Source of the DNA: Simmondsia chinensis
Lineage: Eukaryota > Streptophyta > Magnoliopsida > Caryophyllales > Simmondsiaceae
Assembly (NCBI GenBank): GCA_018398585.1
Contig: JAGTTD010000010.1
Coordinates: 32,652,638-32,716,637, forward strand
Length of the DNA stretch: 64,000 nucleotides
Reading direction: 5' to 3'
Shown here: positions 3,201 to 55,380 of the stretch, piece after piece
Position numbering within the stretch: position 1 is the first letter of the stretch
Layout: every line of letters begins with the position of its first letter
Notes under the pieces: model-generated
Databases searched by the model: none
The model's input: the letters and a program-made list of their open reading frames with translations, nothing else
Told to the model about the DNA's origin: nothing
Translations under genes and position numbers: made by a program

Positions 3201-6200
3201 TCAACCTCTTTCCACTCCTGCAATCCAATGCACCTAAATATTAACCTCTTGTGAAGGGAACTCCTGTCCGGCGATCAGATTTGATTGGGCTGATCATGCG
3301 TCGTAATCAACTAGCACATGATATTCTGAAGGCATCGTTGTTTCAGCAATTGCCGCCAATGCTTCAGGTATACCTTTGAATAGATACTGTATCTTATGTC
3401 TTCAACTTCTATTTATTGTTCTATTAATGTGCACTCAATGGTTGTAGAGTCCAGATTTCTGCAGACGCTGCCGTCACCTGAATGCTTGCACTATTTACCA
3501 CAAGGTAACCTCCTTTTGATGTAGACAGCCACTTCATATATATGAGTCAATTGCAAAGCTGTAGACATTGATAGCTTGCCATATTTGTGAAGAAAAATGT
3601 TGAGATGGGGATCAATCTTTCCAACAATAGTACACCTGTTTTTGATAATTATAATATTGCTTTGTGTTGCCATTATGGTAAATGACGGTTGCAATTGCTC
3701 TGGTAAAGAATAGACGTTTCACGCGACGTAAAGAATAGTTGGGTGTGTCGGCCATCCCAAACTATGTCATGTCTTGTTATAAAATCCCCTCTACCCTCGT
3801 AAACAAACTCAATAGTGTCATTGCCCCTTTTTGGTGGAAAGGAGGGTCAGTCGAGGATAAAGGGATCCATTGGAAATGTTGGCACTTCCTCTCTCGCTCA
3901 AAACTTGAGGGGAGCTTAGGCTGTAGGGATCTTCACAGGGTTAAAATCTCCCTTCTTGTTAAACAAGTTTGAAGGGCTATCCAAAACCCTAACGCCTTTT
4001 GGGTCCAAATTCTTAAGGGCATCTATGTCAGGAACTCCTCTATCCTTAAAGCGTCTATTGGTTCCAACCCTTCGTGGGGTTGGAGAAGTTTCATTGAGGG
4101 AAGGGATTTCATTGCAAAGGGTATTAGGTGGAATGTGAATAGTGGGTCATGTATCAATATTTTGGAGGACCAACGGGTTCCTCTATTGCCATCCTTCTTG
4201 GTTGGATTTAGACCGAGTGAGGACCGACCTTTTTCGAGGGTCTCTGAATTGATTTCTCCGGGTGCGCGCCGTTGGAACTCCGTGGCTGTTTCCAAGTGCT
4301 TCTTAACAGAGGAGACAAAAGCCATTCTCTCAATTCTGGTAGGAAACCCCTACGGGGATGACGACATTGTTTGGCACTTCACAAACCACGGTTCTTACTC
4401 GGTGAAATCTTGCTACCGAGTGTGGCTTGACCATTCCAATTCCAACAACACCGAAAGAGCCTCTCCTAGCTCCACGGGATACTCTTCAAAAAGTCTCCAA
4501 TCCTTATGGTCTTTGCCAATCCCTCCAAAAATCAAACATTTTATTTTGAGAGCTATCTCTGATGCCCTTGCTACCTCTGAAAATTTATGGAAGCGAAATC
4601 TTAAGCCCCACCCGTTTTGCCCTCGATGTGATGATGCCATTGAATCAATCGAACATACTCTCTTCTTTTGTCCTTGGGCCTGGGCTTGTTGGTTCGTGTC
4701 CCTGTTGGGATTCATACCCACCGATCAAGGTTTCCATGGTTTCCAACATTGGTGGGAAGCAAGCAAATCTTTTTCCCGGGATGATATTGTCAGGGTCTCT
4801 TTTATTTGTTGGGAAATTTGGAAGACGAGATGTGAGTGCATCTTTAATAAGACAAGCATTGACCCAATTCAAGCTGCCTCCAAAGCCTCACAGCTCGCCA
4901 ATGAAGCTGCTTCCTGCAACATGCCTCTTTCGGTTTCTCTTGATCCCGTGGGGCGTTGTCGTTCATTCAGGCTCGATTACCGTCCCTCGGGTTGGGATCC
5001 TCCCCCCTGGATGGGTTAAGATCAATACCGATGCGGCTTTTGCCTCCACTGCTTCCTCTGCTTTGGGGTTGTTGCTCGATCCAGTTCAGATTCCATAATT
5101 GGAGGTTGGTGCGGTAATGCCACGGCAACCTCCCCGCTTGTTCCCTTGCCTCGTCTTATGGGTGAACTTATGTCATTATTGAGTCTGATTGTCAATTAGC
5201 TGTTAATTTTATCTCTCGTGTGTCTTCCCCTGCGTGGGAATGTAGTGCTGTTATTGAGGATACTATCTTTTTAGCGCCTTCTAGTTGTTTTAATGCTGTT
5301 AGGTTTTGTTGGGTCCTCGAGTTGGTAATCAGGTTGCCCATTTTGTAGCGTGTGATCATTTACGAGGTTCTTGTTCTCATGTTGGTGGAGGGATGTCCCC
5401 CCGCCCCTCCGTTCGATTGTAACTAACGATCTTTTAGTAATGTAACTCGCACTCGTGGCTTGGTGGTGTTCAAAAAAACAAAAAGAAGTATGCAGATTCT
5501 CTTGCCAACCGTAGGAATGAGTAAAAATTAGTCATCTGTTTTCTTTTGTTTGGCATCCGTGGCAATATAATTAATGCTTCCTTGTGATTTCTCATTTATA
5601 TCCCATTACTGTGATTGCTAACTTGTTTGCCTAAAATGGATTTGCATGGAGTTTCACCCTAAGCAGTAACCTAATGGATTTTACAGAAATGGGTAGCATA
5701 TAACAAGAATGCCTCAACCAGCCAATTAAAAGTTCCTATTTAGATCAGAAAGCTTATAACCTAAGCAAAATTTTCCTATTTCTTTTGTTGAATGAAGCGG
5801 GCCTCTTGCACCCTTAGATGGGTTTTCATTTTCCAATGGGAGACATATGATTATGACAGCTTGAAGAGGTGGAATGGCAATCATTAAAATTGAATGAGCT
5901 CACGGTTGTGATAAATCTGATGATGCATTTGAGTGGGAAAAGAAGTGTTCGTATGAGCTGCTAATTATAGACATTTGCTTCATACTGTGACCTAGGGCTG
6001 CAAATGAGCCCAGCCACAGCTTGCTCGGCTTGGCTTGTTAACTAAATGAGACCGGCTCGGTATCGGTATCATTTATCTAATCGAGGCGCATATCTGTGCT
6101 GTGCTCGGCTCGGCTCGGCTCGTTTACTAAATAAGACCAGCTCGTTAACTAAACGAGACCGGCTCGGTATCGGTATCATTTATCTAATTGAGGCGCATAT

Positions 6201-9200
6201 CTGTGCTCGGCTCGGCTCGTTGTCTAAATGAGACCAGCTCGTTAACTAAACGAGACCGACTCGATATCGGTATCATTTAGGCATGGTTATTTGGCGAGCT
6301 GGCTCGTTGAGTTTTCTTGGCTCATTGGGCTCATTTCCCAGGCTTGTTAAGCTCATTTATTAGGCTTGTTAGGCTCATTTATAATTATTGTTATTTGGAT
6401 TGCCAGAAAAGGGTAATAAAATAAATCATGTATATAAATTGAAAAGGAAAAAAACATACATGTTATTCAATTCTGCAATCTAGACATGCGAGCCAATGAT
6501 CGAGTTGGCTCATGAGCCCATAAACGAGCCGGCTCATGAGCCCATAAACGAGCCGGCTCGTGAGCCTTTCGAGCCGAGTCGGCCTCGGTTTGATTTGGCT
6601 CATTTATTTAAACGAGCCGCCTTAAACGAGCCGAACCGGCTCTCAAATCGGCTTACACGAACCCGAGCCGAGCCCTTAAGGAGCCGAGTCAAATTGCCTC
6701 GTGAGCCGGCTTGACTCATTTGTAGCCCTCCTTTAGATCATAAAATTAGAATGAAGGATACGTGGATGGGAAAACACTTATCCATGTTGATTACATTTGA
6801 TCATGGTTCTGTTGTATTGAACTCCTTCAACAATGGTTGGATTTGTATATTGAAGCTTGAAACTAATCACTTACTGCTGTTCATTTTGAGTGCCTCAGGT
6901 ACATGGTGGAAGTGCGGGGAGCAGCGGATTGGGAAATTTTTTTGATTCCCTTACTAACCATTTATCAGCGTCTCATAATACATTCTTTAAACAATGGGAT
7001 CGGCTCATAGATCTTGAAGCTAAAGAGACACGGGTTAGGATTATTCAAAACCTGTTTTGATTTTCTGTACCGTGCTATATGATCAAAGCTTTGATGCATT
7101 TCATGCATGCTGTGTTTGCTTCCTTTGCAGTTTTCCCAACATAAAACATGGAGATCCCTTGTTTCAAAGAGTGCACTCTCTTCTAGTTGCCTCCGTTCCA
7201 TTGTTCTTGATGCTGCAGATCAGATACAGATTCAAAATCCTGCAAGAGATAATCAGTTCATCTATCGTTTTGTGCACAAAGATGAACTTACTCTGGATGT
7301 GAGGCTGCATCATGGGAATTTTAAAAATGTGCCATTTTCTGCAGAGGCGGACTTAGATTGTACTCTACGAAATGGTGACCATGTGGTACTTCTCATTGTC
7401 TTTGAACTTGTCGGTGGCATATTTGAATTCATGAAGCATAGATATTTGACTTGTAAACAATGGACGTGACAAAGTGCTGAAATAACCTGTTTCAGTAGAG
7501 GTTTTTTTTTTTATAGGTAAGCAAGTTTGTCGGTGGGGGGATTTGAATGGAGACCTTTTGTCCTATCTTCATTGCAGTTGTACCTCTCCCTACACCCAAG
7601 GATGGAGAATTTTTTTTTCTTTTGTGTTTGTATTTAGAGTATGGCACACAGAAAGGAATATATAGTGCACCTAGCGCGACATGTTTTAATCTAACATGGA
7701 CGAGCAACTCAATCTTGCTCTATTCTATTTTAGCTATTTTTCCCCAGTGTTGTTCAGTTAGGCATTAACCACTTTCTTGAGAATATGCAACTTCTCTACA
7801 ATCAATGCTGCTGCTACAGATCGGTGTTTTACCTGTAGATGATACATATAAGGCAAAAAGCTTGTGGAGGGTCTGAAGGGACTGGGGCATATCTTTAGCC
7901 CCAAAATTGCTGCATCTTTACCTAGTGGTCTTTTCAAAGAAGCAACTTATTTTCCTTCTCAAGCTCTGTTCTTTATCTCCTTCTACATCTCAATTTCAAG
8001 TAGACTCTTCATCTTTGTGCCCTCTCTCATTTTCTTTACCATGAAAGCATGCCACACAAAAGCTTATTGATCACATTTTGTACACTATAAACTTGAAGCA
8101 TGGAACGTTCCAAATCCCAATGTTGCTAGCCTGTGGAATTTGTTTGCTTGTTCCTGCCTGCTGGGCGCACGGCAGTCACCTTTTATGCAGAAGCACTTAT
8201 CTTTTTGCCACCCCTCTTAAAATATCAGAAACTGTTTCAAAAGTTCTGTTTTCTGTCTTTCTGTAACCTGCTTTTCTTTCTTTTTTTTTTTTTTTTTCTG
8301 TTTTAAGTCTAGCTTATTAAATGATGCCTTTCAATTTTTGGTATTTTACAGATATTAAGCAGTGAATCAAGTCATTTTGCTGTTGCACGTGGGATTATTA
8401 GAGAAATTAGTCGCTCTCATGTATCTGTAAGATTAAAATTTGCAATTCTCATGTGTATCCCATTTTATGTATTATTTCTTCTTCTTTATCTAGTGCAAAT
8501 TGTAAAGTCTACCAACTTCATGATGTTAGTTATATGCTTATTGTACTGGCTAACCTTGTTTAATTCTTTGTGGAATCTCAGATTTCATTTTCAAAGAGGC
8601 TAAGACTTCCTAGGAGCCCCAAGTCTTCGTTGGCACAGGATCTGTATAATGAGGTGTGGCGGATAGACAAGGATGAAGTTTCTTCCACCTTCACTATCAT
8701 GAGGTAACTGCGTGGATGTGATGCATTCTTTCACACTGGGCCTGGTCATTTGAAACATTGGTTGAACACGTACTGATATGGCTCATTGGATTCGTAACCA
8801 TAGGTTCAACCTTGTGCAACTCTTCCTGCAAATTGGACAAAGTGCTCAACTAAGAAAGTTAATTGTTGATCTGGAGGTAAATCTCATTTCTAATTGGCAT
8901 GGTTCTGAACATCTTTATTAATATTTTCTTTCTCTTATCACTTTAATGTGCTGTTCTGTAGGCTCCTAGATATGACAGTGGTTCTATACTCAGTCAAGAT
9001 CCTGCAATATCATACATTTGGTCAGAGAGGAACTTGAATGATGATCAGCGCAGAGCAATTATCAAGGTTATATTTGGTTTTGTTGTTGCATTTGTTCTAC
9101 CAATTTGAGTCTGATATCTATCTTGTGTGTTACAATATGTATATGTGCATACTGTTGTCTTGTTTTTCACTTGGATTCTGGGTCTGACTTTGTTTTGTCT

Positions 9201-12200
9201 GCTGTCTTACTAATTCAGATTATTACAGCAAAAGATTATGCTCTTATTCTGGGAATGCCTGGTACGGGCAAGACATCTACAATGGTCTACGCAGTAAAGG
9301 CTTTATTGATAAGGGGTAGATCCATCTTGCTGACATCCTACACCAACTCAGCTGTTGATAATGTGCTCATTAAATTGAAAACGCAGGTAATTTGGTCACC
9401 TTTTGTGATGCAAAAGAAAAAGGACAGCCCTTGCCTTACAATTTCTGCTGATAAATCCTGATAATTTCTACTCCATTCTAGTGCGATTGGACGGGCTTAT
9501 TAGGTTGATTTTCCTTCTATAGTAGTTTGATTTTCTGTGGCACTTCCTCAGTCTCTTGTGTATATCCTTTATCTCGTCTTGTTATAGCTTTCTCTATCAA
9601 AAAATATTGCACTAACAAAAAAATGGATGCACTTGTTACATACAACAACAACAATAGACCCAGTGCCTGCAAAGGGCTCCCGCAAAAGCAGGGTCGGGGG
9701 GGGGGGTGTAGATGTACGCGGCCTTCCCCCTTCAGGGGGTACCCTGAAGAGAGGTTGTTTCCGAGGACCCCCAACCTGAGAGGCTGGTCCGCAGCATAGA
9801 GCATGTGACGTGGCAGCAGGAGAGCATCAAAGCATGAGTAGGACAAAACACACAGCGAGCAAAACAACAAACTCAAGCAAGCCACATCAAGCAAAAATCA
9901 AAAATCAAGCGGAAATCAAAGGATAGGTAGGCAGGTAGGCAAGCAAGTAGAGGCTCATGCGAGCAAGTACACAACCTAAGTGCGCCAGAAGGATGTCAAG
10001 GCCTAGCACTAGTAAGCTAGGCGACTCTATCCAACTAGAGCATCTATAACCCCTATACTAGCCCTTCATTGGGCCCTCTCTAAGGCCATCTCCACCCAAA
10101 GGTTTAGGTGGGTGAGGTCTTGTCGGATCGTCTCCAGCCATGTCTTCTTTGGCCCGCCTCTTCCTCTCATGCTTAGTGTAGTAAGGGGCTGTTCGCACCT
10201 CCTAACTGGAGCGTTGTCAGGTCTCCTTCTAACATGTCCGAACCACCTCAAACGTTGCTCCCTCAATTTATCTTCAATGGGGGCTATGCCCAATTTGCTT
10301 CTTATGACGTCGTTTCTGATCCTATCCTTCCTTGTGTGTCCGCACATCCACCTCAGCATTCGCATCTCCGCCACCTTCATCTTCTGTGTGTGCTGTTGTT
10401 TCATCGCCCTGCACTCCGCCCCATACGTCATGGCTGGCCTCACAACCGTCTTATAGTATCTTCCCTTTAGCTTTAAGGGGAACTTTCTATCACAAAGTAC
10501 CGCGGAGGCCATCCTCCACTTATGCCATCCCGCTTTAATCTGGTTGTTGATATCCTTATCAACTTCACCGTTGTGCTGTATCATGGACCCCAAGTACCTG
10601 AAGCTCTCCTTCTTTGATATGGCCTCAGATCCAATCTTGACGTCTTCCTGGTTAGGCATGATGGAGGTATCGAACTTGAGTTCCATTTACTTGTTACATA
10701 TATAGTGCATGGCATTGAGCTAGTTGAGAGTAGTTTGTTGCATCAATTATAAAGGGGGATAGTTATGAAAAGTTACGGTAAAGGTAGGATGAACCAATAG
10801 AATGACTAAATATTTGTCACCCTTTTAGGTGTTTCGAAAAAATGTGGCTTCTTAGCAAAGGATATAAAGCTTCATTGCTCGGGTACTATGAATTTGCCGA
10901 AGCTTAGTTCAAAAGGGTGCTTTCCTTCTATGGATTGGGCCAGTTTCACCCAATCATATTTTTCATGTTCTGTCATTCTTCTATGTTTTATAATGAAGAA
11001 GAATCAATTATCCTAAAGCCTCTAGTCTTAATATTCCCCAAAAACATTTGAGGGAGATTAATATTGAAGTACATCCGATGGTTTATTTTAATGGAAAATT
11101 AAAGCATGATATTTCTCCCTTTTCACCTTCGCGATCAAGTCTTGTATTTGAAATTAAAGACTTTATTGGATGCTTAAGGTTCCTCCAATTTATACGTTTA
11201 TGATGCTATTCATTCTTAATGGAGCTGTGACTTTTAACCTGTGTGTGACATGGCTTGATATTCTAGGCTCCCTATTGCTTTCCAAAAAAATAAGGAGGGT
11301 GGCATATTTTCCTGTTCATTTTAATTGCTGGGATCGTCCACAATATACTTTTTGGTGTTTCCGGGATTTATGGTTTGTCAGGCTTCTCTAGGGAGAGTGA
11401 TTTACTGCCTTAGAAGGTTTGGGGGATTTTGGAAGGAATAGTAAAGAGGGTAGGCTTCTTGGAAGTTATCTGTTTTTGCCATTGTTATTTGTGTTTGGTT
11501 AATGATGACTGATATTTGTAAGTATGAGCTCTTTCTTAATTTTTCTTGAAGCATGATTTGTCATTGTGCTCCAAGCCTTTTTTTCTTAAGTCTTCGAATG
11601 GATTACACTTCAGTTAAAACTATGTTTTGTGACTCTGTGTGCCGGGTGGGACGACAGAGAGATTTGGTAGGGAAGTTCCTGCATATTAGCCCGAGTTAGA
11701 ATTTTGAGAGCAATTATTCTATGTCAATATGAGCTCCGTGGAGATTGTGGATGTTGAAAATGAAGATGTTGTTTGCGATTGGCAAAGTTTTGTATGTGGT
11801 TATCATAATGGCAGGGTTAACATTACTGACAAATAGCTTTCAGTCAATTTCCTGTCATACTCTAATTAATATATTCCATTGCAGTTAACTTTCAACTGCA
11901 ACCATATTTTCTCATGTTCTTTCACTAAGGTTTGGATTCACAGGGGATCGACTTTCTACGTATTGGAAGATGTGATGTTGTGCACCAGGAAGTACGTGGA
12001 CATTGTATCTCAGGTCAGTTAGTTTGACGAACAATACGCTTCTTCTAGGACTGGTTCTTATTCCAGTTAAATCATTAGTGCAGTTCTCTGTGACAGATAT
12101 GGACATTCATAGTGTGAATGAAATCAGAATGAAGATGGATCAAGTCAAAGTTGTTGGAGTCACTTGTCTCGGTGTAACTAGTCCCTTGCTAGCCAATAAG

Positions 12201-15200: not shown

Positions 15201-18200
15201 AAAGCATAAAGCATGAAGCAACGATAGCAATAAAGCATCCTAGCGACAGAGCAACAAGCAATCAACACACAACAATAGCAAATAAAATCAAACAGCCATA
15301 CGTTTAAGTTTATGGGCACTAGTACGATCTTTCTGAATGTGACTTGCAAATTTCTTCGATTACTTCATTTCAGGGCTTGAGTTTTCAGTATGCAGCTCTA
15401 TCGTAAATCACTGATTGAGCATCACTTTTATGTAGCTTCCATGTCAATGGCTGAGCAATGTAGCCTATGTTTTATTGTTTTTTCGCAGGTCTTGGCTGTG
15501 GAGAAGCCAGTAATACTTATCAACACAGGTTTTTGAAATATTCATTCTTATTGATGTTATCCTCTGACAAGGTTGCATGTCTCTGATAATATGACCGTTG
15601 GCTTCTCAGATATGTTACCCGCTTTCGAAGTGAGGGATAATAAAACAGTAAATAACCCTGTTGAAGCTTACATTGTTGCTGAGGTGAGATTTTAGATTAA
15701 GGCTCCATTTGTTTCAATTTAAAAACATTTCCTTCTATAAAATTTTTCTTCACAAAATATTTTCATTTAAAAACGTGTTCTCAAAAATTTGTCGTTATAG
15801 CTAAAAATAATGGTTTCATTTTATAAATTTATGTAAGCTTCACACTTGGCCGAGTTGAGGTTAAAGTGAAGCATTGACATGAGATTACCGTCAAAAGCGT
15901 CGTCCCCTCCATGAATGAAAATGTATTCCTCTTTCGTTGAGGGGAAGTCAGTTTCCCTTTAATGGAGGAAAATATTTTCCATGTTTCATTGGTGTAATTG
16001 GCACCACCTTGTAGGGGTACAGCTGCGTACATTTTACTCCAGATCCTACCTTAGTGGGAGCCTCTGTGAGGCATTGGCTTGTTGTTTCATTGTTATTATG
16101 AAGTTATGCCCAAAAAAAAAAAATAATAATAATAAGAATTGAGACAGAATTTTTTTTTTTGTCAAAACAAACCGATCATAATTGCTTCACCGGTAATACC
16201 GAGAAGTGTCCACTCATTGTTCTCAGCAGGCATTTCCACCTCAGCAGGCCCGGTACCCTAACTCTTGGTAGTTTAATGTAGGTCATTGAGTCACTTGTCA
16301 ACCATGGAGTTGAAAAAGAAGTTATTGGTGTGATTACTCCTTACAATTCTCAGGCAAATCTCATTCAGCAAGCCGTGAACATGGCAGGCCTTGAGGTCCA
16401 TACAATTGACAAGTATCAGGTCGGACCAATTCTTTCATCTATTATGTAAAATTCACTTGAGAAGGAGTGACGCAGCATAGGGGTAAGGCTGCGCACATCC
16501 CATCCCCCCCTAAAAAAAAAAACCCTACATATACGAGAGCCCTCAAGGCACTGGGTTTTTTTTTGTTGTTGTTGTAGTCTTATTCTAGATTGTAGGATAA
16601 TTTAGTTCTTTTTCTTATTGATCTCTTCAGTTATCCAATAAGGTTTAGCATTTTTTTATAAATAGAGCTTTGTAATTCATTAGTTAAAAGTTCTTGAAGA
16701 AATAAAATTGAGTTGTGTTTTTAAGTAGTAAGTTGTGCTACAACAATTATGAAATATGAAATCTTTTATGATCAATAATCTCATCTTCTGTGCTGCATCA
16801 AAGAGACTCTGGTACACTTTGTTAGGTGATATCTAAATTGTTTTTCCCCCTTTCTGGATGGTGTGAATTCTGTAGGTGATTCTAGGAGTGTAAACGTGCT
16901 GAATCGAGTTGAAGACCTCCTTATTCGAACCCAAGCTTTCGAGCTCAAGTTTGAGTTGAGCCCTTATCGAACTCAAATCTTTGTTCCATTGCTTGATTCG
17001 ATATAATATTATATTCGATACTCTGCTTAACTTGACTTGTTAGCCTAAATCAGCTAAGTGGAGCTCATGCTTGAGCTAGGCTTGCTATTGAATTAAGCTA
17101 GCTAACGAGCCAAACTGGTCAAGTTACCATCGAGCAAGCCATTATCAATCCATTCTCGAGCTAATACTGACAATCTAATGAGTCTTTATCACACTGTTCG
17201 TGGATATTAACAAGTTGAGAACCCCCCGTGTTTGAAAGTGACTGGTTAAGCTTATCAAGCTTGCTCGAACTCAACTTGATAAGTTTGCTACGTTTCTAGG
17301 CAATACTAATCATCTTGAATCATTGGTATTCTCTTATTAAAATTACTTTTTTTTTTTGTGTGGTTTGACTTGGTCCGTTTAACTGGTGGCTGCTTTCACA
17401 ATATGATTTCCTGGGATCTCTTTTTGCTCCCTTCCGTTTCTTTCCTACTTTTGTGATTAATTTCAAATGCTTTTAGAATGAAATATAAACTTATTACATA
17501 TCCATATTCCCTTTGAGTGGGGTCGGTACTCTAATGTTTATACTACATTCACTAACAAGTTTCTTCATTTCAACGTTTGTGGGTTTGCTTGTGCTTATTC
17601 TGATATTCTTAAAATACTAGCATTTTTCACTCATGAAAATAGTCATAGTTCTTGGAAGCGGCCTCTCTCCAGGGTAACACCCTGTAAGAGGTAAGGCTGC
17701 GCACATCTCCCGCAGAACTTGCCGTGGCGGGAGCCTTTATGAGGCACTGGGTTGTGCTTGCTGTAAAATATTCATAGTTCGAATGTCCTTGCATTTTTAG
17801 TGCACAAGCCTTTATTTGGTACATCAACTATACACGAGTGGGACGGCGTTCCTTACATATTATGATCTTCAATGTTCAGGGAAGAGATAAGGACTGCATA
17901 CTTGTGTCTTTTGTCAGATCAAGCCAAAATCCAAAGAATTGTTCGTCGTCACTGCTTGGTGACTGGCATAGGATCAATGTAGCCTTAACACGTGCCAAGG
18001 TGAGTGATGCAACACAGTTCGATTTAGTATTTATTTTAGGATTTTTTTTTTATAACAAAACACCACCTTCAAAAGTTTTCATTTTTTTTTAATCACTACA
18101 ACTTCTCAATTTTACAAAAAACTAACTTTAAAAGTTTAAATTTTTTCATGTAACCACTTACATTGACATCATTAGTTTTCCCTTGAGTCTGTGTAACTCT

Positions 18201-21198: not shown

Positions 21199-21318
21199 CC
21201 CCGGAAACAGTCTCCTTTCCTGCCGGAAGGGGTAAGGCTGCGTACATCACCCCCCCCCCCCCCCCCGACCCCGCGTTATGCGGGAGCCGCAAGGCACTGG
21301 AACTGTTGTTGTTGTTGT
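21199..21318 (+). repeat. RTE tail insertion with C17 tract
   Basis: Starts CCCCGGAAACAGTCTCC and keeps GGGGTAAGGCTGCGTACATC, C17 (21250-21266), GACCCCGCGTTATGCGGGAG, GGCACTGG and (TTG)n. Imperfect flanking repeat AGTAAGTCAATT (21187-21198) and AGCAAGGCAATT (21319-21330), 10 of 12. Intergenic between DNA2 and the TBC gene. Confidence 0.8.
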
Positions 21319-41699: not shown

Positions 41700-42497
41700 T
41701 AGTAAAAAATTATTAGTCTTTAATCATTTATCACTTAAGTATTCTAATATTTTAATATTTTATCTATTAGGTGCCTTATATAGGAAATTGATAAATTTTT
41801 GTGAGAATCAAAGCCAATTTTATACAAAAATACCAATATACTGCATCATTAAAAAGGAACAGGAACATACTCATGCCTCAAGGGCTCCCGCCTACATAGG
41901 GTCTGGGGAGGGTGGATGTACGTAGCCTTCCCCCTTCAGGGTGTTAACCTGAAGAGAGGCTATTTTCCAGTGCCCCCAACCTGAGGATGAGGGCTTCCTA
42001 GAAGGTCACCCATCCTGATACTACTCTCGCCCAAGCACGCTCAACTTCGGAGTTCTAATGGGATCCGGTGACGGCGTGTTGGTGCCTTCTTTGGTAATAT
42101 AATGCATAATTACAATGATATATATAAGTTATATAAATATTTTCAGCAAAAATTTAAAGAACTACATGAATAGTTTACTAAATTTAGATGTAAACTACCT
42201 ATATATTGCCAAAGTTATGTGCCGTTTTAGTTTTTTTGTTAAAAAAAATCATCAAATCCAAATAAATATACTTATATATTGTCAAAATTATGATTTACTT
42301 TAGCATTTTTCAAAGAAAATCTATCAAACTTTAGAAGAATGATGCCTAATTGATAAAATTTTAGAACTTCAAGGTACCTCAGTAATAAATTTTTAAAACC
42401 TTAAGGTATCTTATTATATATTTTGAAACAGTGTACTTAAATGATAAATGACCAAATTTCAGAATATCTAAGTGATAATTATCCTAAAAATTAATTA
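41700..42497. mobile_element. Mutator-like MITE, copy C, split by a SINE
   Basis: Left part 41700-41851 and right part 42096-42497 match MITE copy B in order (CCAATTTTATACAAAA, TGATATATATAAGT, CAGAATATCTAAGTGATAAT). The 244-bp 5S-headed SINE interrupts it at 41852-42095. Flank duplication of the MITE itself is not clear. Confidence 0.65.
41852..42095 (-). mobile_element. 5S rRNA-headed SINE with RTE tail, copy 1
   Basis: Minus-strand order: a head of about 109 bp matching plant 5S rRNA from nucleotide 1 by length (ACCAACAC, CACCGGATCCCATTAGAACT, AGTTGAGCGTGCTTGGGCGA, GAGTAGTATCAGGATGGGTG), then AGGTTGGGGG and the RTE tail (AAATAGCCTCTCTTCAGG, GGGGGAAGGCTACGTACATC, GCGGGAGCCCTTGAGGCA). Box A, IE and Box C of the 5S internal promoter are recognisable. 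Target duplication: AATATACTGCATCATTA (41835-41851) and AATATAATGCATAATTA (42096-42112), 15 of 17. It is a retroposed chimera, not an rRNA gene: the 5S first 10 bases differ and the 3' end is replaced by the tail. Confidence 0.85.
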
Positions 42498-43464: not shown

Positions 43465-43725
43465 TGATATGACTTGCTTTGAGTTTGTTATTCTACTTGT
43501 CGTGTGTTTTGCCCTACTCATGCTTGATGCTCTCCTACTGCCAGGTCTTTTGCTCTATGCTGCGAACCAGATTCTCAGGTTGGGGGTCCTCGAAAACAGC
43601 CTCTCTTCAGGGTAACCCCCTGAAGGGGGAAGGCTGCGTACATCTACCCCCCCCCCCCCCCCGACCCTGCTTATGCGGGAGCCCTTTGAGGCACTGGGTT
43701 TGTTGTTGTTATTGTATTTGTTGTT
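43465..43725 (+). mobile_element. RTE LINE 3'-end copy
   Basis: Colinear with the 3' UTR of the RTE LINE at 9643-10688: GACTTGCTTTGAGTTTGTTA, GTGTGTTTTGCCCTACTCAT, TGCTCTATGCTGCGAACCAG, TCAGGTTGGGGGTCCTCG, then the tail with C16 (43647-43662), GACCCTGCTTATGCGGGAGC and (TTG)n. 5'-truncated; no duplication found. Confidence 0.85.
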
Positions 43726-46595: not shown

Positions 46596-49400
46596 TTAAC
46601 AAACTGAAATTGAGAGCCCAACCAAGTTCGAGCAATGCTCGAATTTTCTACTGGGAAGAACTTTAATGAACATGTCTGTTGGATTATCTTCAGTACCAAT
46701 CTTCTTCAACTCCACCTTCTGCTCATCTATTAGATCTCGAATAAAATGATGCTTGACATCAATGTGCTTTGTTCTGTCATAATGCGTCATCTGATCTTTA
46801 GCTAGGTGAATCGCTGACTGGCTATCACAGTAAACCCCAATAGTGCCTTGATTAATACTGGTCTCACTAACCAAACCTCTCAACCAAACGGCTTCCTTAA
46901 ACGCTTTTGTAACTGCCATATACTCGGCCTCGGTAGTCGACTGTGCAGTAACTAATTGTAGACATGCTCTCCAATTGATAGCACTGTCTCCTAAACAAAA
47001 CACATAACTAGAAGTAGATTTTCTCTTATCGAGGTCTCCACCATAATCTGAGTCAACATACCCTACTAAACAACATTTACTCTTCCCAAATTCCAAACAT
47101 ACATCAGAAGTGTCACGCAAGTACCTGAGAATCCATTTAACAGAGTGCCAATGCTCCTTTCCTGGATTCGCCATGTATCTACTCACTTCGCTAACAGCAT
47201 AAGCAATATCTAGACGAGTACATACCATAGCATTGATAATACTACTCACAGCACTAGAATAAGGGACTTGTGACATGTACTTGACATCCTCCTCAATCCG
47301 AGGTGAATCCAATGCTGAAAGCCTGAAGTGAGCTTCTAAGGGAGTGCTAACAGGTTTAGCATCCTTCATGTGAAATCGGTCTAGAACCTTCTCAATGTAC
47401 TTCTTCTGAGACAGGTACAACTTTCCTGCTTTTCGGTCCCTACTGATCTCCATGCCAAGAATCTGCTTAGTTGCTCCTAAGTCCTTTATCTCGAACTCGC
47501 TTTTCAACATTGCTTTCAAATCATCAATGTCTGTCATGTCCTTAGCTGCAATTAACATATCATCAACGTATAACAGAAGATAAACAAAAGAGCCTGAATC
47601 CGTCTTTCTAAAATACACACAATTGTCATATTTGCTTCTGAAAAACCCATGGCTAGTCATAAATTAATCAAACCTCTTGTACCACTGCCTAGGTGACTAC
47701 CTTAAACCATAAAAAGATCTTTTCAATAAACAAACATGATCTTCCTTACTCTCAACAACGAAGCCTTCAGGCTGATGCATGTAAATACTCTCCTCTAGCT
47801 CACCATGCAAAAATACAGTTTTCACATCTAACTGTTCAAGCTCTAAATCATGCATAGCTACTAAAGCAAGTATTGCTCCTATAGAACAATATCTAACAAC
47901 AGGTGAGAAAATATCATGAAAATCAACATCATGTACCTGGCTATAGCCTTTAGCCAGTAACCGAGCCTTGTACCTTGCATTTTCCACTCTAGGAATGCCT
48001 TTTTTTTGTTTGAAGACCCATTTGCACCCAATTACTTTTTTTCCTGTTTGAGGCTTATCTAACTGTCAAGTCTGATTCTTCTGTAATGACTCCATTTCTT
48101 CATGCATGTCCATTAGCCACTTCTCTGAGTCAGATCTAGATACAGCTTCTAAATATGAAGACGGTTCAGAATCTTCCACTGTCTCAGCTGTAGTAAGGGC
48201 ATAGGCTATCATCTCCTCATATCCATATCTCTGTGGCGGCCTAATCTGCCTCTTCTGCCCACCACCTGCAATTGTATGCTGCTCGACCTGCTGACCTGTT
48301 TCTGTTGCTTCATCCTCATCAGAAACATGTACTGGAGGTGCTTGCATACTCTCAAACTGAACTACCTGCTGTTGATTTCAACTTTCTGACTGTATCTGAC
48401 TTTCATCAAGCTTATGTGCCTGAACTAATTCACGAACTAAGGAGGGTGTATGTGGCGGATGTAGTAGAGCATATTCATCAAAAGTAACATCTTTACTAGT
48501 TAGAAATTTATGAGATTTTGGATCCCATAAACGATATCCCTTCACACCTGACGTATAGCCAAGAAAGATACACTTCTTGTCCCTAGGCTCGAGCTTTCCA
48601 TCATTAACATAAGCATAACCAAATAGTTTCAAATGGGAATAATCAGCAGGAGAACTAGACCATACCTCTTCTGGAATCTTCAACTGAAGCACTGAATGAG
48701 GAGATCGATTCACTAAATAGCAAGCCATGTTAACTGCCTTTGCCCACCATTCTCTCCCTAATCCTGCATTTGAAAGCATACACCGAGCCTTCTCTAGTAA
48801 CGTCCTATTTAATCTTTCTGCCACTCTATTCTGTTGAAGTCAACCTGTACAATTCCTGTGTCTGACAATGCCTTGGTTCTCACAGAATTTAAGGAAATTA
48901 CCCTCAATAAATTCAAGGCTATTATCAGTTCTCAACCTCTTTATCTGCTTCCCTGTCTGTTTTTCAAGCAGCATCTTCCACTTCTTGAAGACTTCATAAA
49001 CTTCATTTTTCTGCTTAAGAAAATAGACCCTAACTTTTCTTGAATAATCATCCATGAATGTTAGTAAATACCTGGAGGGTCCCAATAAATCTAAATGTAT
49101 ATAGTCCAACATTCCTTTAGTCTGAGGCACTGCCTGTTTGAAGCTGACTCTCTTCTGCTTCTCATATGCATAGTGCTCACAGAAATCCATCAGTCCGGTT
49201 GACTAACCACATAACAGACCCCTCTTACTCAACTCTGACAGCCCTTTATTACTCATATGGCCCAATCTTATGTGCCACATCTTAGTAATCTCTGTATCTG
49301 CCATCGACGGTGTGGAAACAGCTACTGTCCCTGTCACGGTAGAACCTTCAAGCTCGTACAAGGTTCCTACCCTTCTACCCTTCATCACAATCAGCTTTAC
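46596..49400 (-). pseudogene. Copia pol: integrase, RT, RNase H
   Basis: Pieces in coding order: pre-integrase 49388-49203 ([20 protein letters not shown]); integrase core 49190-48840 (IHLDLLGPS, LRTDNSLEF); integrase end 48824-48378 (MAERLNRTLLEKARCML, KKCIFLGYTSGVKGYRLWDP); RT start 47987-47697 (ARLLAKGYSQVHDVDF, LDVKTVFLHGELEESIYM); RT core and RNase H 47660-46596 with LLYVDDML, DSDYGGDLDKRKSTSSYVF, TEAEYMA, CDSQSAIHLAK, HIDVKHHFIRD. Integrase and RT active-site Asp residues are kept, but stops at about 49200, 48837, 48063 and 47694 end each frame. Confidence 0.93.
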
Positions 49401-50622
49401 TAACCCTTATAGCTCCACCTTCAGCTATGTACCTGTACCCAATGGACTCAAGGGTACCTAAAGAGATAAGGTTCTTTTTCAAGTCTATAACGTGTCTCAT
49501 GTTGCTAAGTGTCCTGATAGTACCATCAAACATCTTCACACAAACTGTTCCAATACCCATGACCTTATACGCGGCATCATTGCCCATCAAGACTACTCCC
49601 CCCTGAATTGACTTATAAGTGGCGAACCAGTCTCTGTTAGGACAAACATGGTAAGAACAACCCGAATTCATGATCCACTTATTTCTGGACCTGGTCTGTG
49701 ACACGGTTACTAGTAGGACATCAACATCTCCCTTATCTTCAACTACACTAGCCACAGCGGACTTATCACTTCTATTATGGTTATGCCTGTTATCTTCTTT
49801 CTGCTTATTCTTAAGCTTATAATAGTTTTTCTTTATGTGCCTTTTCTTGTAACAAAAGTTACTTGACAAGTTTTTGTGTCTAGACTTAGACCTTGACTTC
49901 TTTCTACCATCAGACCCACTATTCTCAATTCTACCTCTCACAAACAAACCACTACCAGAGGCATTCACAGTGTCAGACAATTCTTTATCTACTCGTTCTT
50001 TACTCACTAGGTTCTCTTTAACTTCATCAATTGTGATAGTTGACCTACCACCATATATCATGCTTTCTACAAAGCCTTTATATGAATTTGAGAGAGAACA
50101 TAATAACAACATGGTCTGATCTTCATCTTTAGAGGGCATCAGCTTTAACTCTTGAATTATAGAGTTAAATTCATTAATATGGTTCTTAAGAGATGTACCT
50201 TCCGACATACGAAACGTGAATAACCGGCGCCTGATTGCGAGTTTATTGGAAAGCGATTTGAAGCAGAACATCTCCTGCAGCTTCTACCACAACTCCTTAG
50301 CGGTTTTCACCTCTAAGACTTCTGTTAGAACATCATCTGTAAGACACATATGAATAGCTGTAAGTGCCTTCTCATCTAACTCCTCCCATAGTACTTCGGA
50401 TAAACTCTCAGGCTTATTCTCTTTTCCATCCAGTGCTTTCTTCAAGCCATTTTGTGTCAGGAGACCTTTAACGCGGACTTGCCACAAACTGAAACTCCCT
50501 TGACCACTAAAATTCTCTACTTCAGATTTAATCGTTGACGTCATAGTACCAAAACGAACAACAAGGGCTCTGATGCCAATTTGTGAGGAAATGCGGAATC
50601 CCAAGTACTTAATTCGAATCAA
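49401..50622 (-). pseudogene. Copia gag and protease
   Basis: The gag start (EVENFSGQGSFSLWQVRVKG, LTAIHMCLTDDVL) is at 50622-50284. After a stop it continues from 50271 (LKNHINEFNSIIQELKLM). The zinc knuckle reads CYKKRHIKKNYYK, so it has lost cysteines of the CCHC set. The protease site reads WIMNSGCSYHVCP; the usual catalytic DSG is NSG. Confidence 0.9.
50566..50579 (-). other. Copia primer-binding site
   Basis: On the minus strand TTGGCATCAGAGCC lies two bases inside the 5' LTR and matches the initiator-methionine tRNA primer site TGGTATCAGAGC with one change. Confidence 0.9.
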
Positions 50623-52262: not shown

Positions 52263-52683
52263 GTATACCTATATTCGTCCCAAATGAGACAATTAGATAG
52301 ATATGTATGTATGTATATCAAATTTCAACAGTCTTACTGGCATCTTTACCTAGAACGGTAGATAAGTTGCCAAGTGTAGGGTGGATGTGGGGGGGGGAAG
52401 AGAGAGAAAGAGCACAAAGGGAACCAAACTTAGGAATATACGCAAAAATGCTCTTACAATTAAATTCAATGGTAAACCATGTCAAAGACTTAAACTTTTC
52501 TCTTTGTGCGGATATGCTTTTGGGACAATGTGCGGGGCCCCATATCTACTCTAAATAAATTTTTTATTTATTTATTTGGGTTAGATTTTGTGATGAAAAA
52601 AAGTTTTTTTAATGATGGGTTTTTCGACTGTTGGATGGAAAATGATTTTCGTCGTAAAATTAGGGTTATTATTGTTTGAAGTG

Positions 52684-52911
52684 ACACCGAATCTTATTAG
52701 AATTTCGAAATTAAGTGTGTTCGAGCGAGAGTAGTACCAAGATGGGTGACCTCCTGAGAAGTCCTCATGTTACACCCCCCTGGTTAGGGGTTCTCGGAAA
52801 CAACCTCTCTTCAGGGTAGCACCATGAAGGAGGAAGGCTGCTTACGTCCATCCCCCAAACCTTGCTTAGAAGAGAGCCGTCGGGGCACTGGGAATGTTGC
52901 TTTTGCTTTTT
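52684..52911 (+). mobile_element. 5S rRNA-headed SINE with RTE tail, copy 2
   Basis: A 12-bp duplication, TTGTTTGAAGTG, at 52672-52683 and 52912-52923 bounds the insert. The head starts at about 5S nucleotide 26 (ACACCGAATCTTATTAGAAT), keeps GAGCGAGAGTAGTACCAAGA and TGGGTGACCTCCTGAGAAGT, and runs to the 5S 3' end (TGTTACACCCC). The RTE tail follows at once (GGTTAGGGGTTCTCGGAAAC, AGGAGGAAGGCTGCTTACGT, GGGGCACTGGGAATG). Most differences from 5S are C-to-T or G-to-A, as in methylated old copies. It is 5'-truncated relative to copy 1. Confidence 0.88.
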
Positions 52912-52923
52912 TTGTTTGAAGTG

Positions 52924-55380
52924 GCAGTAAAAATATCAAAATGTTTCCAAATCTATATCCGATTGGAATGAATTGGACAGGATGGTAGAATGATAGGTCA
53001 GGTTCTATTTAGATAAGTGTATGTTGTTCAATCTGATTTTTCTGTTCCACCAATGTTTAACATTTTAAAAATGTTCATCACTTCACATTTGATCAAGGAC
53101 CAAAGACTAGAATGAATAACAACCACTTTAGTTGGTTATAGACTAAAGAGTCATGTCCAATTTAGTTTTACAATATGGTCCAAAGTGTTTGTTAATATTG
53201 GTCCAAATCTCAACCAGACCAAAAATTCATAAACAACAAAAGTCTTAATGTTGGTTGAGAAGCGAAACATATATTACTAATTCGATATGGTGTTGGACAA
53301 ATTAAGTCAACCTGAGCTAGGTTTTATCCTGAACAATATTTTATCACATTTAGGATGTTTTTGCTGCTTAAAATTTGGACTAAACTGGACAAAAACCCGA
53401 TTAAAGTCCAAACTAAATATTGAGGTTGGGTCGAATAGTGAACACCCTTATCTCGAAGGCTAAATTCTAGGAAATAAAGTTTTCTTTAAACCGAACAAAG
53501 GGAACCCACCCCCTAAAAATGCAGGACATGACAATTGTTTCCCTAATCCGTCTTTATTGCATGTCACATCCTTAACAGTGAAGCTTGGAGACAAAGAAAG
53601 ACGATGCCCTCTCTCCAGCAACAGTGGCATGACTTGTGTGAAGGGGAAGAGATAAAAAGATTCAATTCTCATAAAAGGAAACCTCTATATATAGGTCCAA
53701 AGATCTCAGTCCAACTAAAAAGGAGCCATATTTTTAACCCATCAATTTCTTTCTAAACTTACAAAGTCTTCAACAGATTACCTTCTATTGAGAAAATTCA
53801 CAAAGTAGCAACAAAAAGTGACCAAAGCAATACATGTAAATTTACGTGAAAAATAATGTCTCAACTAGAAGGGAATAATCCGTGAACTCAATTGGACCAA
53901 GCTATCACAAAAGTTTTGTAATTACAATATATTATCATATCCAAAACTTAATACACCAAATCGAAACTCACAGATATAGGTACGTGCTCACGTACATTCA
54001 CAAATACATAATCCTACAAACTCACTCTTTCTCCCTTTTCTTTTGGACTCATGAGAAAAAACCGACACTAAAAGAAATATAAATTGGATCAAACATCATC
54101 GAGATTCCTTTTATCTCTCAAAAACTAAAAATCATACTTTAAAAATGACTTTTTTTATGTTTTTGGTTTTTATTTCCTTTTTTCCCCCCTAAAGGTATAA
54201 AAATAAAAACTAAAAATTAAAAATAAGAAAAAATTTTATTTCTAAGATTTAAATTTTCATTTCTAAACAACAAGAAAATAATAACAAATAGGTCGATCCT
54301 TAACAGCATGCACTTTAATGTGAATTTAGAAGCATATTCCATATAGTAGCGGTATTTAATGTATGATGTTGTTACTAAGTAAGGAAAAAAAACATAATTA
54401 AAGTGATAAGACAAAATCGGTGTGAAGCTGAATATCTTATTATAGTATCTTAATCATTGACGCCTTTTTTGATTTTCACTTCTGATTATACACGTCAAAT
54501 ATTCAATGTCATAAAAAACTTTTATGAATTTTTTTAAAAATATAATTTTTATATTTAAAACTGGAACATGGCTTGAGCCGAACGTTGTAGTAGAGTCAGC
54601 TTAAGTATCCAGCTCAGATTTTAGCCTCTCTTCATTTTTTTTCATTTGCTCATGTCAGATTTTCGCAAGAAAATTGAGCTAAAAGAAAGAAATTAAATAG
54701 GTTTTCTATGTAGTGCTACTTTTGTTCAAAAATAATTAGTATCTTTAAAAAATATGTAAAAAAAATTTTCCTCTAATTTTTTTGAGTATTTGTTACTTAG
54801 GTAAATATAGATAGATTCCTCGTTATGCTTTTCTTGAATGATCTTGAGACATAAACTAGAGCTGTAGAGCAGATATGCACAGTTAATTTTATCTAAAGAG
54901 GAACCCATCATGTATCTAGTAATCGAGTGACGCTACTTCAATTGCTTCTCACCAGATACTCCACGAGAGTGTCAAGCTCAAGTATCGTTACAAGTGTTAA
55001 CTAGTCTCATCCTTCTTCAACTCAAGGTATCTGTCGTTGGGTCCTCAAAGGAATATCTGGTGAGACTAGAATATCTTATGAGGTCATGTTTGCTCATAGG
55101 ATTGGAATATGGATTCGTGGGGAGGCAAGAATTCGAAGTCAAAAAATTTCAATTCTATTATTTGATTCGCTTGCAGGAACTCAAATTACAAATCCCCTAT
55201 CCAATTAGATGGAATTGGATTTTAGCTAAAATTCTACATCCCAATTTCTTTTTTTTTTTTTTGTGTGATGGGGAAGGAATTACAGTTCCATATTAATTCC
55301 ACTATATACTCCAACTTAATTGATCTAAAACCCAAAATAACTTGAAATAGAAAGACTGGACCTCACCTAAATTTAGCTCC
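52924..55380. other. Long gene-free stretch
   Basis: No gene or complete element is evident. The text is AT-rich with short frames lacking any family signature. A region near 54100-54260 (AAAACTAAAA words) resembles the MITE-like blocks elsewhere. Confidence 0.45.

Follow-up and report, generated by a model that had tools for sequence, protein, structure and literature searches.

Two 5S rRNA-headed elements with RTE-type LINE tails in Simmondsia chinensis, probable copies of one plant SINE family

The internal promoter of 5S rRNA drives Pol III from +1, runs of T stop this polymerase, and the LINE BovB belongs to the RTE clade. In the springhare, the element Ped-1 is described as a 5S rRNA promoter joined to a BovB tail (PMC3747384). 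HaSE3 of Helicoverpa armigera has a 5S rRNA-derived head and a 3' tail like that of the LINE HaRTE1.1, and its authors report duplications on two copies in a related species together with a similarity to 5S that is highest over boxes A, IE and C (PMC3272025). Among plant elements, the TS SINE of tobacco is reported to carry about 100 nt that are nearly identical to the 3' end of an RTE LINE, flowering-plant RTE LINEs are described as ending in (TTG)n or (TTGATG)n, and Au-like SINEs have poly(T) tracts or a short T stretch at their 3' end, their partner LINE being called unidentified in the same source (PMC3747384). Au-like or Angio-domain SINEs are further characterised by a 37-bp 3' Angio-domain (PMC9033089). 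A review of plant TEs presents plant SINEs as tRNA-derived, and a paper on the TRIM Cassandra mentions the gain of such a promoter by SINEs only "in animals". The literature searched, which lacks most subscription journals, yielded no title or abstract start on a plant 5S-SINE.

Here we describe two elements, copies A and B, within one window of Simmondsia chinensis DNA (the whole stretch analysed, 64,000 nucleotides). The initial annotation had reported on the minus strand a 5S-derived head fused to the local RTE LINE tail, with a 15-of-17 direct repeat at both ends, and each of these features was recovered. Copy A is a complete element of 245 nt (41851-42095, minus strand), running from its 5' duplication to a T5 end. 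The head (41987-42095, minus) corresponds to 5S nt 1 to about 108 and coincides with an Rfam 5S_rRNA match at 41978-42095 (minus; 61.6 bits, E 1.7e-10). A local alignment with the Arabidopsis 5S sequence gave 81/95 identical positions from 5S nt 13 onward. The RTE-derived tail (41851-41983, minus) extends from CTCAGGTTGGGGG to CCTTTTT, and the Pol III terminator-like TTTTT at its extreme end (41851-41855, minus) is the sole run of at least four T in the 245 nt. Immediately outside lie the 5' target-site duplication AATTATGCATTATATT (42096-42111, minus) and its 3' counterpart AATGATGCAGTATATT (41835-41850, minus). Their core matches at 15/17 with one more matching T, and the stretch as scored (17/20) was reached in 2/3000 random window placements and 8/3000 shuffles. 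Copy A is thus short and non-coding, with a head from a Pol III gene (5S) and a 3' part from an RTE-type LINE, which is the general anatomy of a SINE.

The boundaries given in the initial annotation, 41852 to 42095, need one adjustment: the start at 42095 stands, and the end moves to 41851, the last T of TTTTT. The proposal that the element begins at 5S nt 1 holds in part. In copy A, 25 nt separate the end of the duplication from CACCGGATCCC, equal to the spacing in 5S. This start rests on spacing and not on sequence, since only 2/12 positions are identical to 5S over nt 1-12 (7/13 over nt 13-25). Copy B begins near nt 25-28, so that a start at nt 1 is supported by copy A alone.

Copy B (about 52685-52911, plus strand) has the same architecture, lies 10 kb from copy A, looks older and had been overlooked in the initial annotation. 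Its 5S-derived head (52685-52778, plus) covers 5S nt 26-119, with an Rfam 5S match at 52661-52778 (plus) whose 41.8 bits exceed the gathering score of 38, and its RTE-derived tail (52779-52911, plus) ends in GCTTTTGCTTTTT. BLAST within the window aligned the two copies across head, joint and tail, starting at 52685, with 168/229 identical positions (E 9e-38), and nhmmer on the 5S heads returned E 5.3e-20 for A and 7.6e-17 for B. The 5' duplication TTGTTTGAAGTGACA (52672-52686, plus) overlaps the CA of the 5S with its last CA and has an exact core TTGTTTGAAGTG at 52672-52683; the 3' duplication is TTGTTTGAAGTGGCA (52912-52926, plus). This pair, read by eye, scores the same 14/15 as the pair actually scored, TTATTGTTTGAAGTG/TTTTTGTTTGAAGTG, a value reached in 1/3000 placements and 1/3000 shuffles. 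As the duplication ends at about 5S nt 25-28, copy B is truncated there at its 5' end.

We then compared the heads with a plant 5S reference at the presumed positions of box A, IE and box C. Copy A agrees with it at 14/15, 6/6 and 16/18 positions of the three boxes and copy B at 11/15, 6/6 and 17/18. Relative to 5S nt 26-49, the boxes are no better kept in copy A (36/39 in sum versus 23/24) and better kept in copy B (34/39 versus 18/24). Over nt 26-108 (83 positions) every change from the assumed 5S is a transition, 8/8 in A and 15/15 in B, which would suit old copies decaying under cytosine methylation. Three head changes are common to A and B (nt 39, 79 and 108), a number within chance (null mean 1.4, P 0.15). 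At nt 79 and at nt 108 the ancestral residue is found in 57/57 motif matches each among 5S-like proteins, whose query itself carries those residues. The shared change at nt 79, T to C in both copies, lies just ahead of the presumed box C. In Cassandra, the stretch between IE and the C-box is described as variable (MotC; PMC10853983).

The tail of the two copies belongs to a LINE that is well represented in the window, where, besides copy B, BLAST found nine occurrences of the tail that lack a 5S head. A profile built from A and B and run on the window with E up to 10 gave 14 hits: A and B, nine tail-only matches that pass the inclusion threshold, and three hits that fall short of it. On the reversed window the same profile gave no hits. 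One RTE-type LINE 3' end with a TTG-repeat tail (9647-9780, minus), which we presume to be of the partner type, lies about 290 nt downstream of the C-terminal ORF of an RTE-type LINE (10066-10686, minus). This ORF has 1941 database matches, with identity up to 62% among the best 120 of the 1941, and all organisms named among these 120 are flowering plants (Malus, Lycium, Solanum, Nicotiana, Capsicum, among others). Many of the matches listed carry a precomputed PF00078 (reverse transcriptase) assignment, and a Pfam search with the 206-aa piece itself found no domain. A second LINE 3' end (43571-43710, plus) is the closest to the copy A tail (120/158). The tails of A and B agree less well with each other (105/156), which is a point against their common descent. 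The likeness between the LINE ends at 9780 and 43571 extends far upstream of the shared tail (224/249 aligned letters over the whole alignment). On the basis of its plant relatives and its TTG repeats, and not of a tree, we assign this LINE to what is probably the RTE clade.

Four short tail-only pieces of the LINE (942-1051, plus; 17661-17760, plus; 2283-2160, minus; 21205-21300, plus) begin at about one place, just upstream of GCCTCTC, with (C/T)GGAARC or CTCGGACAC. Duplications are clear at 942 (12/12; control 3/400) and at 17661 (15/16; control 0/400) and not significant at 2283 (control 372/400) and 21223 (control 108/400). The common start could mark a site at which the RTE reverse transcriptase tends to break off. 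The window also holds a LINE-like ORF with a zf-RVT domain (3973-5019, plus), which has only four matches with identity up to 44%, and a broken copia-type LTR retrotransposon (46596-50283, minus) whose ORFs carry Retrotran_gag_2, Pol_BBD, SH3-like and RVT_2 domains. At 9045-9461 (plus) lies an ORF that resembles an exon and encodes an AAA_11 helicase domain, and the LINE at 9647-10686 may lie inside an intron of this gene.

The initial annotation had taken the lack of any further copy with the junction as the sign of chance fusion, and had looked to aligned copies for target duplications. Copy B, in the same window, has the junction, and duplications are present in both A (15/17) and B (14/15). 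The LINE-side joint of the two copies agrees within about 4 nt, as judged by eye on the alignments, with the LINE ends joined at about the CTCAGGTTGGGGG of copy A and GGTTAGGGG in copy B. On the 5S side, copy B keeps nt 119, and 8 nt that it has at the 3' end of the 5S are missing from copy A.

At their 3' ends, A and B have in common the T-run end ATGTTSCTKTTSCTTTTT. The end reads ATGTTCCTGTTCCTTTTT in copy A and ATGTTGCTTTTGCTTTTT in copy B, an end of the type ...GTTGCTTTTT. At least three TTG units stand at this end in 7/9 tail-only LINE pieces, the exceptions being 17661 with one unit and 16005 with two, and a single unit stands there in A and in B. The LINE piece at 16479 has T9 ahead of its TTG repeats. 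Four residues (columns 156, 162, 168 and 170) are common to A and B but occur in none of the LINE rows that have a letter there, compared with 0.52 expected (P 0.0009). Column 182 was left out of this test because it lies inside the duplication; with it counted, P is 5e-5. The four residues sit near one another within the last 18 nt, where the LINE rows are repeats, and being so clustered they cannot count as independent and hinge on how the rows are aligned. Before column 150, in the tail body, A and B share no residue of this kind and have six (A) and nine (B) private ones. The folding of the tail is not better than that of dinucleotide shuffles (z -0.26, -1.16 and +1.21), and we therefore make no claim about RNA structure. 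The 3' end is the best sign of a common descent of A and B. The T-run fits Pol III termination and speaks against two accidental fusions of LINE and 5S.

The common anatomy, the duplications, the near-identical joint, the shared T-run end and the presence of a partner-type LINE in the window lead us to propose, with a probability of about 0.8, that A and B are both old members of a single plant SINE family with a 5S internal promoter and a dependence on RTE machinery. The proposal rests on two copies, both within the 64-kb window. We infer Pol III transcription, mobilisation by an RTE protein and a family extending beyond these copies. Pol III would be recruited via the internal 5S promoter (box A, IE and box C), initiate at 5S nt 1, continue across the 5S body into about 130 nt derived from the RTE 3' end, and stop at the terminal T-run. 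An RTE LINE protein would then recognise the shared 3' part, and target-primed reverse transcription would insert the SINE RNA, giving the 15-17 bp duplications and the 5' truncation of copy B. Copy A fits such a single Pol III unit; in copy B a TTTT begins six bases before the final T-run. A plant SINE with a 5S internal promoter and an RTE partner had already been suggested in the initial annotation. The junction and duplications of copy B strengthen that suggestion, and the T-run end, unlike the TTG of 7/9 LINE pieces, sits less easily with it.

The main rival reading takes A and B to be recurrent chimeric retropseudogenes, in which the RTE enzyme would have jumped from LINE RNA to 5S rRNA and the two copies would be independent fusions with a joint at a hot spot. 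A template jump of this sort has been proposed for U6-L1 chimeras. It would give a complete 5S 3' end, as copy B has (nt 119), and the four LINE pieces that begin near one place do so about 15 nt downstream of the joint. The shared 5S changes are within chance and there are none in the tail body, which would also suit separate events, and HaSE3 has itself been proposed by its authors to stem from a template jump to 5S rRNA (PMC3272025). However, a chimera templated by the LINE would be expected to have the LINE's own 3' end. A and B instead finish in a T-run and have in common the four 3' residues that the LINE rows lack. The close agreement of the LINE-side joint is a further difficulty, and it would be surprising for such an accident to have happened twice within 10 kb. 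We consider independent fusions unlikely.

Fragments of Cassandra-type TRIMs, with 5S inside an LTR, could also have come by chance to lie beside RTE tails, and the hallmark by which Cassandra is recognised among plant retroelements is indeed a 5S-like promoter (PMC10853983). Yet a search for direct repeats of at least 25 nt in the 2.0 and 2.2 kb around A and B found none that is LTR-like and brackets either copy, the repeats present being one 51-nt family, which does not bracket A, and two weak families (25-26 nt). The duplications, moreover, bracket head and tail as a single unit, and we regard this origin as very improbable. Equally remote is the idea of 5S rDNA relics or 5S pseudogenes with RTE tails inserted next door, for although such tails are common in the window (the nine tail-only hits), the same order, strand and joint occur twice and the duplications lie outside head plus tail.

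Returning to the reading as one SINE family, A and B resemble 5S-derived SINEs (SINE3-type) in having a 5S head with boxes A, IE and C at the positions we assume. Ped-1 is similar in that a 5S head sits on an RTE-type tail, but it belongs to a mammal and uses a different LINE, and for the latter reason its origin is presumably independent. HaSE3 differs in belonging to an insect, in having a body and tail common to a tRNA-headed SINE and in a partner LINE described as ending in TGA repeats. The 5S rRNA-related SINEs reported from Aspergillus fumigatus are, like A and B, from outside the animals, but their host is a fungus (PMC5063351). With TS-type SINEs, A and B have in common a 3' part shared with an RTE LINE (copy A and LINE 43571, 120/158). 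TS, however, has a tRNA head, and both it and its LINE are described as ending in TTG repeats, in place of the T-run of A and B. Copies A and B have neither a TS-type tRNA head nor a TTG-repeat end, and ARAGORN found no tRNA in the window. Au-like SINEs are comparable in their T end but are listed under tRNA-type SINEs (PMC9033089). The TRIM Cassandra is likewise a plant element on a 5S internal promoter (PMC10853983), but there the 5S lies inside paired LTRs, and no bracketing LTR-like repeat is found here within about 1 kb.

We also looked beyond the window. A 75-aa translation that spans 5S and tail found matches in 62 proteins, and in 62/62 the best stretch begins in the 5S part. It passes query residue 36 in 6/62 (P0142, P0144, P0148, P0150, P0151 and P0167). 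The 14/62 protein sequences inspected, these six included, consist of repeated 5S units or unrelated sequence, and the tail part alone gave no credible match among the 62 (best E 0.034, P0125, with 52 residues beyond the 5S part). Through these 62 5S-like proteins, no second species with the element was found. In viral contigs the junction pattern gave two hits, which we attribute to chance as the 5S head and the tail are both absent from the surrounding 501 and 338 bases. Viral contigs also gave 0 hits with each of two tail patterns and with one 5S pattern, and a stricter junction pattern gave 0 in genome contigs; these collections are without plant genomes, and the counts say nothing on plants.

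A 5S-SINE is likely, though not proven, to be new in plants. We hold it to be an evenly balanced question whether A and B represent the first plant 5S-headed SINE family, one whose Pol III unit has a U-run end and is yet taken up by an RTE LINE with UUG repeats at the end of its RNA, and which could be of the kind proposed as donor of the Cassandra 5S promoter. A plant 5S-SINE would show that capture of the 5S promoter by an RTE-dependent SINE has occurred in plants too, presumably independently. Its T-run end raises the question of which 3' signal plant RTE proteins need, and tools that seek tRNA boxes would be expected to miss 5S-headed elements. For Cassandra, an origin from the insertion of a SINE3 into an LTR has been speculated (PMC10886601), and a 2024 study proposes instead an uptake near 5S rDNA arrays (PMC10853983). 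A plant 5S-SINE would be a concrete candidate type for the SINE3-into-LTR origin, and the question would thereby become testable.
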